From Nioella sp. MMSF_3534 (GTDB lineage: Bacteria > Pseudomonadota > Alphaproteobacteria > Rhodobacterales > Rhodobacteraceae), in NCBI RefSeq assembly GCF_030732985.1, contig NZ_JASHJX010000005.1, positions 1-64,000 on the forward strand: 64,000 nt of DNA, given 5' to 3'. Positions 52,823 through 56,684 of this stretch are shown here, one piece after another (positions within the stretch are counted from its first letter, which is position 1; the number at the start of each line of letters is the position of its first letter). The notes under the pieces were generated by a model. The model ran no database searches. It was not told the DNA's origin and worked only from the letters and a program-made list of their open reading frames with translations. Position numbers and translations under genes: made by a program.

Positions 52823-54214
52823 ATGACTGCAGAAGAGTCCCTTCGTCTTGGGTGGGAAGAGTGGTTGAGCCTTCCCGGCCTCGGTCTGCCCGCGCTGAAA
52901 GCCAAGGTCGACACCGGGGCCAAGACCTCGGCGCTGCACGCCTTCGATATCGAAACCTTCGGCTCGGCCAGCAAACCGAAGGTGCGCTTCGCCGTGCATC
53001 CGGTGCCGGGGCGCACCGATATCACCATCGCCTGTTCCGCCCCGCTGCGGGACCGGCGCGAGGTGACCTCGTCCAATGGCGAGACCGAACAACGCTATGT
53101 GATCGAGACCGAGCTGGATATCGGCGGGCAGCGCGTGCCAATCGAGGTGACCCTGACCGACCGCACCAACATGGCCTATCGCATGCTGTTGGGGCGGCAG
53201 GCGCTTCAGCCCGACTGGATCGTCAGCCCGACGGAAAGCTGTTGTCAGCCGCTGCTGAGCTACGATGTCTATCATTCCGCCAAGGTCAAGACCTCGGCCC
53301 CGAAACGCGCGCTGCGCATCGCCGTGCTGAGCCGGGAGAACAATTATTCCACCCGCAGGCTGGTCGATGAGGGCGAAGAGCGTGGCCACACGATCGAGGT
53401 CATCGACACGACGCGCTGCTACATGGCGATCAATTCGCTGGCCCCGGAGGTCCATTACGACGGCGCCCGCCTGCCCCGCTATGACGCCGTGATCCCGCGC
53501 ATCGGGGCCTCGGTGACTGCCTATGGCACCGCCGTTCTGCGCCAGTTCGAAACGCTCGGCACGTTCTGCGTGAACGGCAGCGCGGGGATCACGGCGAGCC
53601 GCGACAAGCTCCATGCCCACCAGTTGCTGGCCCGTCACCGGATCGGGATGCCACGCACTGCCTTCGCGGCCTCGCCCAAGGACACCGGCAACCTGATTGG
53701 CCTCGTGGGCACCGCGCCGCTGATCGTGAAACTGCTGGAAAGCACGCAAGGCAAAGGCGTGGTGCTGGCGGAAACCCGAAAGGCCGCGCAATCGGTGATC
53801 GACGCGTTCCGGGGGCTCAAGGCCAATTTCCTTGTGCAGGATTTCGTCAAGGAAGCCGCGGGCGAGGACATTCGCTGCCTCGTGATCGACGGCAAGGTGG
53901 TCGCTGCGATGAAACGCAGCGCGGCGGGGGATGATTTCCGGTCCAACCTTCACCAGGGCGGCACTGCAAAGGCGGTGCGGATCAGCAAGGAGGAACGGGA
54001 GGCGGCGCTGCGATCTGCCAGGGTGTTCGGCCTCGGGATGGCCGGGGTGGACCTGTTGCGCGCCTCGGACGGTCCCAAGGTGCTGGAGGTCAACAGCTCG
54101 CCCGGCTTCGAAGGGGTGGAAAAGGCGACCGGCAAGAACATCGCCGCGCATCTGTTCGATGCCATAGAGAAGAAGGTGCGCCCGACGCCTGCCCGCAAGC
54201 GCAAGGGAAAATAG
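52823..54214 (+). CDS. RimB-RimK fusion protein
   Basis: The 463-residue product joins two proteins that are usually separate. Residues 10-140 are a retropepsin-like RimB domain with the active-site DTG at 30-32 in [13 protein letters not shown]. Residues about 165-440 are a RimK ATP-grasp ligase, with [37 protein letters not shown] and the metal site [12 protein letters not shown]. RimK adds glutamates to ribosomal protein S6; RimB is thought to cut them. The fusion implies joint control. It is divergent from tgt. Confidence 0.88.
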
Positions 54215-54396: not shown

Positions 54397-54488
54397 CAGA
54401 CGGGATTGGCTGGCGGCTCTGGACCTCGGGGGGCGCTTTCCTTATATCTTTGCTCAACAATTGGTTTTCCAAGCCGGATGGCACGCAA

Positions 54489-54842
54489 ATGCAAGAGCAG
54501 CTGGAGGGGGCACCCCTCATCAAACCATCTTCGACCGATCATCCTCTCTACGACGCGATCGTCGAAGCCTGCCGCACGGTCTATGACCCTGAAATCCCGG
54601 TCAATATCTATGACCTAGGCCTTGTCTACACGGTCGAGATCAGCGCCGAGAACGAGGTCGAGGTGACCATGACCCTGACCGCGCCGGGCTGTCCCGTGGC
54701 CGGTGAAATGCCCGGCTGGCTGGCCGATGCAATCCTGCCTGTTGCCGGGGTCAAGACCGTCAATGTCGAGATCACCTGGGACCCGCCCTGGGGGATGGAG
54801 ATGATGTCGGACGAGGCCCGGCTGGAACTGGGCTTCATGTGA
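54489..54842 (+). CDS. SufT-like Fe-S assembly protein (MIP18/DUF59)
   Basis: The 117-residue product is a stand-alone MIP18-family domain (former DUF59). HPLYDAIVEACRTVYDPEIPVNIYDLGLVY is the family core (given in part), and TAPGCPVAGEMP contains the conserved cysteine. These proteins help deliver Fe-S clusters. The ATG at 54489 is weak; a TTG at 54450 in the same frame would add 13 residues. Its stop is two bases before the first operator-like repeat of the SatD gene. Confidence 0.88.
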   Translation: MQEQLEGAPLIKPSSTDHPLYDAIVEACRTVYDPEIPVNIYDLGLVYTVEISAENEVEVTMTLTAPGCPVAGEMPGWLADAILPVAGVKTVNVEITWDPPWGMEMMSDEARLELGFM

Positions 54843-54843
54843 G

Positions 54844-54892
54844 ATCAAGTCTTTTGGCTTGATTTTTGTGGTATCAAGTCATATGGCTTGAT
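54844..54892 (+). promoter_or_regulatory. Twin near-palindromic operators before the SatD-like gene
   Basis: ATCAAGTCTTTTGGCTTGAT (54844-54863) and ATCAAGTCATATGGCTTGAT (54873-54892) differ at two positions. Each is a dyad with ATCAAG/CTTGAT arms. Centres are 29 bp apart. The second ends two bases before the ATG at 54895, leaving no room for a ribosome site. The C-terminal helix-turn-helix of the gene product could bind here. Confidence 0.65.
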
Positions 54893-54894
54893 TC

Positions 54895-55545
54895 ATGATC
54901 ACTACCCCCCATCCCGTGGCCGTCCTTACCGGCGACCTCATTGGCTCAACCGATCATTCGCCTGAATGGACGACACAAGCGCTTGACCGTATCAAGACAT
55001 GTGCGCATGAGATCAGGGCTTGGGACGACGCCGATGACCCGCGGTTCACCCGATATCGGGGCGATGGCTGGCAGATCGTCCTGAGCGAACCGCGCCGCGC
55101 CCTGCGCGCTGCGCTCTATGTTCAGGCCAGCCTAAAATCCGCTCAGTCCGGAACCCGAAGCCGCATTGCGATAGGCCTGGGAGAGGTGGACGCCTTGCCG
55201 GTTGGCGACCTGTCAAACGCGTCTGGACCTGCGTTCATTGCCTCGGGCCAAGCCCTGGATGGCATGGCAAGGGACCGAGAGCTCGTCATCGCGGCGCGTG
55301 AGTCCGCGTATCTCCACAAAGGCATTGCCGTTCTGCTTGACCGGGAAGTGCAGGACTGGAGCCGCGAACAGGCCGAAGCCATGATGCACTTCCTTCCGCC
55401 GTCCACCCCGACCCTGAAGGACCTGGCAGATGCGCTTGGGGTCTCGCCGCAAGCCATTCATTCCCGGCTGAAAAGCGCCCATTGGCGAGAGGTTGTTCAA
55501 GCCGTCTCGCATTGGGAAGCCCATGAGGAAAGCCGCCATGATTGA
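54895..55545 (+). CDS. SatD-family regulator-like protein
   Basis: The 216-residue product resembles SatD-family proteins. Its N-terminal part has VLTGDLIGSTDHSPEW near residues 9-24 and RYRGDGWQIVLSEP near 51-64, a layout like a nucleotide-cyclase fold. The C-terminus (about 170-200) contains LKDLADALGVSPQAIHSRLKSA, a helix-turn-helix. It overlaps the next gene by 8 bp. With the twin operator ending directly before the start it may be autoregulated, and leaderless. Confidence 0.75.
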   Translation: MITTPHPVAVLTGDLIGSTDHSPEWTTQALDRIKTCAHEIRAWDDADDPRFTRYRGDGWQIVLSEPRRALRAALYVQASLKSAQSGTRSRIAIGLGEVDALPVGDLSNASGPAFIASGQALDGMARDRELVIAARESAYLHKGIAVLLDREVQDWSREQAEAMMHFLPPSTPTLKDLADALGVSPQAIHSRLKSAHWREVVQAVSHWEAHEESRHD

Positions 55546-56251
55546 AACCATCACTGCGCTGATCTTTGCCCATGTGCTGGCCGATTTCGCGTTTCAGACC
55601 AAGGCGATGGCCACCGGCAAGGACCGGCTGGGGCCGCTTCTGGCGCATACGGCCGTGGTCTTCCTGCTCAGCTACGCCGCCCTTGGGGGCGCGCATTGGC
55701 CGGCGCTGTTCATCGCGGCGCTGCATATGCAGATCGACTATGCCAAGGCGCGGCTTGGATCGGATGACAGCCTCGCGCATTTTCTGATTGATCAGGGGGC
55801 GCATCTGATGGCGATTTTGGCGGGTGGGCTTTTGTGGACCGATGCCTATGCCACGGGCCTTTGGGGGCAGATGCCCGATCTGACCGCACAAGCGCCCGAG
55901 GCGATGGCGCTGATTGCGGGCTTTCTGCTGGCCACCCGTGCGGGGCAGTTCGCCATTGGCAAGCTGATGACGCCTTATGCGGCGGCCCTGCCCGATACCG
56001 AGGGGCTGTCCAATGGCGGCGCGGTCATCGGGCTGCTGGAACGGGGGCTGACCTTCATCCTTGTGCTCAGCGGGCAGATGGCGGGCGTGGGCTTCCTGAT
56101 CGCGGCGAAATCCTTTCTGCGGGTGGGCAGTATCGAGAAGGACCGGACGCTGGCCGAATATGTTATCATCGGAACGCTCGCGTCGATCGGGTGGGCGTTG
56201 CTGGCCGGAATTGGCTCTGCGGCACTGATTTCCCATCTTGGAGGTGCTTGA
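55538..56251 (+). CDS. DUF3307 membrane protein
   Basis: The 237-residue product starts with IFAHVLADFAFQTKAMATGK, the DUF3307 hallmark with LxDFxxQ, and has about seven membrane helices. Its ATG at 55538 lies inside the end of the SatD-like gene, with GAGGAAAG before it. The SatD-DUF3307 pairing occurs in other genomes, from memory, so the two probably work together. Function unknown. Confidence 0.85.
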   Translation: MIETITALIFAHVLADFAFQTKAMATGKDRLGPLLAHTAVVFLLSYAALGGAHWPALFIAALHMQIDYAKARLGSDDSLAHFLIDQGAHLMAILAGGLLWTDAYATGLWGQMPDLTAQAPEAMALIAGFLLATRAGQFAIGKLMTPYAAALPDTEGLSNGGAVIGLLERGLTFILVLSGQMAGVGFLIAAKSFLRVGSIEKDRTLAEYVIIGTLASIGWALLAGIGSAALISHLGGA

Positions 56252-56303: not shown

Positions 56304-56684
56304 ATGTTCGGCATTCCCGGCAAACAGGCCGTGACCGTTACCGACGCCGCAGCGCGCCAGATTTCCAAACTGATGGAGTCCGGCGGATCGCAGGGCTTGC
56401 GCATCGGCGTCAAGAAGGGCGGCTGCGCGGGGATGGAATACACGATGGAGTATGTGTCCGAGATCGACCCGCTCGACGAGGTCGTGGAACAGGACGGCGC
56501 GCGGGTGATGATCGCGCCGATGGCGCAGATGTTCCTCTTCGGGACCGAGATCGACTACGAGGTGTCGCTGCTGGAATCGGGGTTCAAATTCCGCAACCCG
56601 AACGTGGCCGATGCCTGTGGCTGCGGGGAATCGATCAAGTTCAAGGATATTGACGAGCTTCAGGCCGAACAGGCCGGGAAATGA
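56304..56684 (+). CDS. HesB/IscA-family Fe-S assembly protein
   Basis: The 126-residue product is an A-type Fe-S carrier. Ligand cysteines are C41 (KKGGCAGMEY) and the pair C105 and C107 in ACGCGES. The N-terminal VTVTDAAARQI is typical. It lies two genes from the SufT-like gene. Its stop overlaps the TfoX-N gene start by 4 bp. Confidence 0.95.
   Translation: MFGIPGKQAVTVTDAAARQISKLMESGGSQGLRIGVKKGGCAGMEYTMEYVSEIDPLDEVVEQDGARVMIAPMAQMFLFGTEIDYEVSLLESGFKFRNPNVADACGCGESIKFKDIDELQAEQAGK

Follow-up and report, generated by a model that had tools for sequence, protein, structure and literature searches.

How is a gene transcribed and translated whose start codon stands two nucleotides behind a palindrome, itself the second of a tandem pair? 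This question is raised by a regulator gene in the window—the whole stretch of 64,000 nucleotides of Nioella sp. MMSF_3534 DNA that was analyzed. The gene encodes 216 residues (54895..55545; forward strand, as are all genes and promoter elements given below) and is delimited by its open reading frame, its relatives, and an AlphaFold2 model. It follows, on the same strand and after a gap of 52 nt, a SufT-like gene of Fe–S assembly (54489..54842; TIGR02945 with 148.9 bits, cut-off 143.4, scanned from the start at 54450), which forms the left border of the module. Downstream, a DUF3307 membrane protein gene (55538..56251; PF11750 with 46.7 bits, cut-off 23) overlaps the regulator gene end by 8 nt, as the initial annotation had noted, and the comparison of loci described below supports the two genes as a unit. 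An IscA/HesB-type gene (56304..56684; PF01521) marks the right border. Two congeneric genomes (L154 and L156, one of them 81% complete) lack the module and carry the IscA-like gene directly after sufT. Hence, the regulator–DUF3307 pair looks like a presence–absence cassette at the sufT/IscA site. The short sufT–IscA gap of these two genomes contains, as judged by eye, CAAGG and GGGATTGAT pieces—possibly operator remnants. The window also bears a gene at 52823-54214 that joins a putative Zn-protease domain (PF05618) to a RimK ATP-grasp.

The initial annotation described two near-palindromes with identical arms, 29 bp apart, the second ending at 54892 and followed by an ATG at 54895, and all of these positions are correct. 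The distal operator ATCAAGTCTTTTGGCTTGAT occupies 54844..54863 and the proximal operator ATCAAGTCATATGGCTTGAT 54873..54892; both were located by pattern search, neither is assigned to a strand, and the distance from start to start is 29 bp. Both copies have identical 8-bp arms on either side and differ in the central 4 bp alone (TTTT, ATAT); the outer 6 bp of each copy pair perfectly. A degenerate operator pattern with up to three mismatches is found at these two places only within the window (four strand matches, a number reached by 0 of 100 shuffles). Across the 4.15-Mb genome, ATCAAGN8CTTGAT occurs at no place except the two operators, and with a looser pattern they are likewise the only places at 0–1 mismatches in the whole genome (G000). 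At exactly two mismatches, this pattern finds 32 scattered genome places against 3 for a backward control pattern. Codon use may be a source of this excess, and given these 32 places, further weak targets elsewhere in the genome are conceivable.

Genomes with a regulator match number 67 of 295 for the family (two of them partial and cyclase-type), four of six for the genus including the window's own, 70 of 292 for an order sample (64 full length), and 13 of 289 for the class, where three matches are full length—all from the window's own family—and ten extend over part only. More distant copies reside on plasmids of gammaproteobacteria, of one Sphingomonas, and of one Bacteroidota species (nine records). 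The Enterobacter copy of the module has no blastn match in E. coli genomes at the DNA level. A phage origin was set aside, as neither window protein has a tblastn match at E ≤ 0.01 among 50,697 phage records; IMG/VR holds two distant relatives of the regulator and none of DUF3307.

A check of the repeat pair in orthologous loci, proposed along with the initial annotation, finds it conserved upstream of the gene. For these counts on 66 loci, L035 (the same locus as L004), L070 (whose match starts at residue 51), and L071 and L072 (partial cyclase-type matches) were dropped; the protein alignment A1 has 65 rows, with L064 left out as it is cut by a contig end. Palindromes with at least five of six arm pairs matched peak at 1–2 nt (28), 30–31 nt (22), and 59–60 nt (8) before the start, against an expectation of 0.31 per position, and a second palindrome 28–30 bp above the proximal one is common. 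In 60 of the 66 orthologues, where about 3 are expected, a tandem operator pair exceeds the 95% level set by shuffling the upstream DNA. In a wider set of 111 Rhodobacteraceae loci, a 20-bp palindrome ends 0–3 nt before the regulator start in 49, while the same search before the control genes gives 0 of 92 for sufT and 2 of 107 for DUF3307. The other 62 loci have no strong palindrome adjoining the start; some of them bear an operator about 11–47 nt up, with a leader, and in some (e.g., L046, L048, L120, L121, and L134) the finder sees no tandem pair. By eye, the annotated starts of two distant homologues, from Segatella (L075:3432-3500) and Pseudomonas fragi (L077:3393-3490), run into operator-like repeats, and their true starts probably lie downstream of the annotation.

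The operators seem to vary together with the protein that is encoded next to them. In 54 loci, whose operators were picked without use of the protein, the column associating most strongly with operator base 2 is residue 185 (z 13.4, next 8.8)—the first residue of the recognition helix, and a Pro in the window (codon CCG, 55447..55449). For operator base 6, residue 183 reaches z 13.3 and residue 90 equally 13.4, the latter of which may be a clade signal. Among 45 further loci, 30 were scorable and 27 of these agree with the pairing: 24 of the 25 loci with Arg185 have a G at base 2, three of the four with Pro185 have a T and the fourth is ambiguous, and the thirtieth locus pairs Gln with C. Both sets together comprise 83 loci with 62 cases of Arg–G, 16 of Pro/Thr/Ala/Lys–T, one of Gln–A, and four exceptions. 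Hereby, the output of the automatic operator finder was left unedited; three operators seem to be out of phase (L008, L053, and L128) and one is unclear (L106), and each of these was counted against the rule. Arg contacting G and Gln contacting A would be ordinary chemistry. On the tree, the residue class changes four times and the base class six times, Lys183 arose once, and the independent residue–base pairs—two on supported branches, four on all—are too few for significance. We regard the link between residue 185 and base 2 as suggestive, an association with chemical logic rather than a phylogenetic proof. In a Bacteroidota homologue, the helix begins with Thr-Arg-Gln and the repeats are, by eye, of AATCAA type; Arg–G is thus not a general rule. 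In a subclade of 13 loci (L046, L048, L120, L121, L130, L132, L133, L134, L138, L140, L141, L143, and L144), the finder sees no tandem operators, and 10 of the 13 carry Gln or Lys at 185.

The operators might instead belong to another, wider-acting regulator, which would suit the 32 genome places at two mismatches and the putative status of binding by the adjacent protein. Yet a second genome site at 0–1 mismatches does not exist, and the operator base is associated with a recognition-helix residue of precisely that adjacent protein. This makes a foreign owner of the operators hardly credible.

What does the position of the operators imply for expression of the regulator? An in-frame stop lies one codon before the ATG and there is no other upstream start; hence, the start cannot move upstream. 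The initial annotation held that no ribosome site fits in front of the gene, which is borne out insofar as no Shine–Dalgarno match of at least three bases exists 5–18 nt before the ATG, though the unconstrained pairing energy is −3.6 kcal/mol. The DUF3307 gene, for comparison, is preceded by a Shine–Dalgarno-like GAGGA (55525..55529) with −5.6 kcal/mol. This difference recurs in 48 adjacent-operator loci, with a median energy of −2.85 before the regulator against −5.7 before DUF3307; the regulator site is the weaker one in 38 of 48 (p 5.8e-5). It also goes with operator position, as the regulator sites of 37 loci with near operators have a median of −3.0 and those of 23 loci with farther ones of −5.7 (p 2.8e-4); in this grouping, a few loci counted as far (L027, L050) appear adjacent when inspected by eye, and two counted as near (L028, L053) are doubtful. 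Nonetheless, a Shine–Dalgarno-like match of at least four bases is present in 8 of the 32 loci whose palindrome adjoins the start.

A promoter can be predicted within the operators themselves. When 40 loci are anchored on the proximal operator, T-T-G stands out in the right arm of the distal operator (33, 30, and 22 of 40), followed 17 nt further on by T-A-T from the proximal center (31, 33, and 25 of 40), which lies about 6 nt from the start codon. At our locus, this pattern predicts a −35 element TTGATT in the right arm of the distal operator (54859..54864) and, 17 nt from it, a −10 element TATGGC (54882..54887), whose first TA is the center of the proximal operator. This central TA is found in 41 of 49 proximal and only 4 of 43 distal operators (p 1.5e-13), and is not explained by the palindrome that both share. 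The −35 TT and the −10 TA occur together in only 30 of 49 adjacent-operator loci, and a strict sigma-70 consensus scan of 54600-55000 found no promoter, the −10 here being TATGGC. With a −35 in the distal right arm and a −10 at the proximal center, 17 nt apart, the RNA should begin at the AUG. We thus predict a leaderless regulator message with its 5′ end at the start codon (54895..54897), a prediction from the column pattern and the comparison of ribosome sites. The start is an ATG in 48 of 49 adjacent-operator loci and in 57 of 62 other loci. Leaderless messages are established in alphaproteobacteria (PMC3616915, PMC3017554), and the 171 leaderless starts mapped in S. meliloti are all AUG (PMC3616915). 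For acuR of Rhodobacter sphaeroides, tests reported in PMC3017554 place the 5′ end of the message exactly at the AUG, behind TTGATT and TATTAT elements and with an operator over the promoter; the −35 predicted at our locus is the same TTGATT hexamer. Judged from these sequence comparisons, the block of operators, predicted promoter, and start codon is real and kept across much of a bacterial family.

The initial annotation had offered two ways of translation, leaderless or coupled from the SufT-like gene. The former stands as a prediction by comparison. Coupling was set aside in view of the 52-nt gap and of 8 out of 49 adjacent-operator loci that have no sufT upstream, as judged in the 783–1498 bases fetched there. 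A related alternative invokes a longer message, formed by read-through from sufT, in which the repeats act as RNA hairpins. The common strand and the short gap speak for it; the eight loci without sufT in the fetched DNA do not agree with it, nor does an operator base that tracks an HTH residue, nor a conserved TA that is confined to the center of the proximal repeat. Also, neither an Rfam match nor a terminator-like site was found. We consider a function of the repeats in RNA very improbable.

The regulator combines two parts, as the initial annotation had proposed: a cyclase-like N terminus and a C-terminal HTH, both now supported by profiles and by a confident AlphaFold2 model (pLDDT 93.9, pTM 0.91). 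Residues 1–156 (54895..55362) correspond to a class III cyclase-like domain, for which an alignment of 65 relatives gives a match to class III cyclases (Ma1120, E 5.8e-4) over columns 1–98, and hhalign of the regulator profile against five cyclases from other genomes gives E 1.6e-8. The same residues match Rv1900c (E 9.5e-6), the cUMP synthase 7r65 (E 2e-5), and the uridylate cyclase 8jsz (1.6e-4) in Foldseek, and the best VIA match has Z 11.5 with 137 aligned residues and an rmsd of 3.1. Residues 157–195 (55363..55479) form the HTH part with the recognition helix at 185–194; the 65-relative profile matches ZitR-type HTH entries with E 1.4e-3 over columns 153–204. Pfam HTH models stay below cut-off for the window protein, and MarR_2 matches 13 of 65 relatives at E ≤ 0.01. 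The label SatD-like, which the initial annotation had used, does not hold in the strict sense: the window protein has no match to Pfam SatD (PF16264, cut-off 29 bits) at E ≤ 1, one of the 65 relatives reaches E 0.004, a Salinivibrio homologue 21.8 bits, and four other plasmid homologues have no match. A search for SatD genes was silent in all 6 genomes and likewise in all 14 controls, and is therefore uninformative on a link from the SatD side. Literature searches returned nothing on SatD with SatC and Streptococcus mutans, and no titles on a cyclase plus HTH repressor; for Pycsar together with helix-turn-helix, they gave one review.

Is the cyclase-like domain an active enzyme? Gly13, Asp14, Gly56, Asp57, Trp59, Gly118, Trp155, and Gln159 are invariant in 110 of 110 rows, and Asp14 and Asp57 align with the metal-binding Asp pair of class III cyclases. 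Together with the fold matches to cUMP and uridylate cyclases, this would suit a catalytically active regulator, which cyclizes nucleotides to a product that acts on DUF3307; the two would form a Pycsar-like pair of signal and membrane effector, in which the HTH only sets the dose. The conserved Arg/Asn pair for the transition state is, however, lacking: column 119 is Arg in only 55 of 110 rows, with Gln in the window protein, and column 115 varies; we take these positions, from the hhalign alignment and known cyclase motifs, to be those of the pair. As the catalytic Arg column is not conserved, the domain appears to be a binding rather than a catalytic one. Furthermore, no cyclase model of PADLOC—whose library presumably includes the Pycsar models—matches; PADLOC reports mad1 only, with E 0.0012 over the regulator HTH, and nothing for DUF3307. 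An active cyclase is thus unlikely in our assessment, and the following two sets of observations bear on it as well.

The first is the linkage to the membrane partner, which would be expected from a Pycsar-like pair, too. DUF3307 adjoins the regulator in 64 of 66 loci; of the exceptions, L064 ends at a contig end inside the regulator gene, and L019 has 430 downstream bases without a tblastn match, in which one frame begins, by eye, like the DUF3307 N terminus. Nine plasmid records were found, and in all six annotated ones that were opened DUF3307 lies next to the regulator, a seventh being unannotated. On a Sphingomonas insulae plasmid (L073:465-7621), genes for a Pycsar effector and a cyclase as well as a TIR gene lie close to the module, a proximity that can be counted in favor of an active cyclase. 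The DUF3307 protein itself is modeled as all helical (pLDDT 94.9), and its fold has no Foldseek match below E 0.001 and a best VIA Z of 6.0, which is not proof of a new fold. PF11750 matches 47 of 48 relatives at E ≤ 1, in an alignment (A2) of the 48 out of 64 DUF3307 proteins with coordinates. His12, Asp16, His37, His63, Asp67, Asp85, and His89, located in the first helices, are kept in 46–48 of 48 rows, and we would guess at a membrane metal site. The N-terminal part matches the PHROG profile phrog_2470 (membrane protein, moron category), and a DUF3307 gene is listed in a jumbo-phage paper; both observations speak against the dismissal of a phage origin. In the literature searched, one paper uses the word DUF3307 and one the term SatD family, and none mentions PF16264 or PF11750.

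The second is the exchange of regulators in front of a DUF3307 that stays alike, which counts against an active cyclase. Between the window and its sister species G003, SufT is 100% identical in amino acids and DUF3307 95%, while the regulator is only 45% identical. The operators are kept, the intergenic DNA is identical in 88% of its 52 bases, and identity drops from near the start codon to near 55530. Five other sets of loci repeat this kind of contrast, with DUF3307 at 70% or more and the regulator at 48% or less: L094/L098/L100 versus L048/L120/L121/L130/L132/L134, L021/L125 versus L145, L012 versus L079, L051 versus L068, and L037 versus L041. In the contrast pairs aligned, intergenic DNA is 40–62% identical and the operator class usually differs, which suggests that operators move together with the regulator gene; same-type pairs (L021/L125, L094/L100) share only 62–64% of the intergenic DNA. 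The reverse contrast, with a regulator more alike than DUF3307, is seen too (down to −18 points), and both genes are hence exchanged. Over 5886 pairs, the regulator is the more divergent protein with a mean identity of 38.5% against 48.1%. Within an exchangeable cassette, a class III cyclase fold may have come to serve a DNA-binding head as its ligand sensor, the sensor—sometimes with its promoter–operator block—having been replaced repeatedly before a more conserved DUF3307. We put this forward tentatively, as possible but rather doubtful. Repeated replacement is what diversifying selection on the sensor, e.g., for infection detection, would lead one to expect.

We consider it quite probable that the locus is a leaderless, acuR-like autorepressor operon with a nucleotide-type sensor that controls the DUF3307 membrane protein. 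Dimers of the regulator would bind both operators via the C-terminal HTH, the distal operator covering the −35 and the proximal one the −10 and the start site, so that binding would block the promoter shared by regulator and DUF3307. When the promoter is free, RNA would start at the AUG; the regulator would be weakly translated from its leaderless message, and DUF3307 would be translated from its own ribosome site or reached by the overlap. The regulator would act as sensor, with the cyclase-like domain binding a metal–nucleotide or similar ligand and signaling the HTH to let go. Comparison of loci speaks for this mechanism through operator conservation, promoter-like columns, the weak ribosome site, the HTH–operator association, and the two-gene linkage; DNA binding itself, repression over activation, the position of the start site, the ligand class, and the function of DUF3307 are inferred. 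The protein might also be an activator, or a repressor without ligand that exerts pure dose control, given that the ligand is hypothetical. Operators on the −35, the −10, and the start are, however, in the position of a repressor, and the invariant Asp14, Asp57, Trp59, Gly118, Trp155, and Gln159 suggest a kept site. Both variants are distinctly unlikely in our view.

A leaderless autorepressor of this type would give two gene families, on which the library searched has next to no literature, a function that can be tested. Its promoter would be unusually compact, as operators, −35, −10, and start codon would form one block. Also, the family provides a natural series of repressor–operator pairs, including sister species with 45% identical regulators behind nearly the same operators.

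Among known systems, the closest counterpart to the locus is AcuR of the R. sphaeroides acuR-acuI-dddL operon, as described in PMC3017554. There, too, the repressor gene comes first, the message begins at the AUG (here predicted), the repressor gene is described as having no convincing ribosome site, the downstream genes are translated better, and an inverted repeat lies over a TTGATT/TATTAT promoter, which at our locus is a predicted one. AcuR differs in that it is of the TetR type, has a single inverted repeat, and uses acrylate as co-inducer (PMC3017554). The protein studied here, on the contrary, is cyclase-like with an HTH, has at least two operators about 29 bp apart, and is partnered with DUF3307. 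With class III cyclases (Ma1120, Rv1900c, and 7r65), residues 1–156 share the fold, the D-(L/I)-x-x-S and GDG motifs, and the aligned metal Asp residues; unlike these, the regulator does not conserve the catalytic Arg column and is fused to a putative DNA-binding head. The likeness to the SatD family (PF16264) is a weak N-terminal profile likeness in two relatives, with every protein scanned below the curated cut-off, and that to MarR-type winged-HTH proteins (ZitR, AdcR) concerns columns 153–204, the HTH part only. The promoter design is of a known kind; what is new is the regulator and its exchange.
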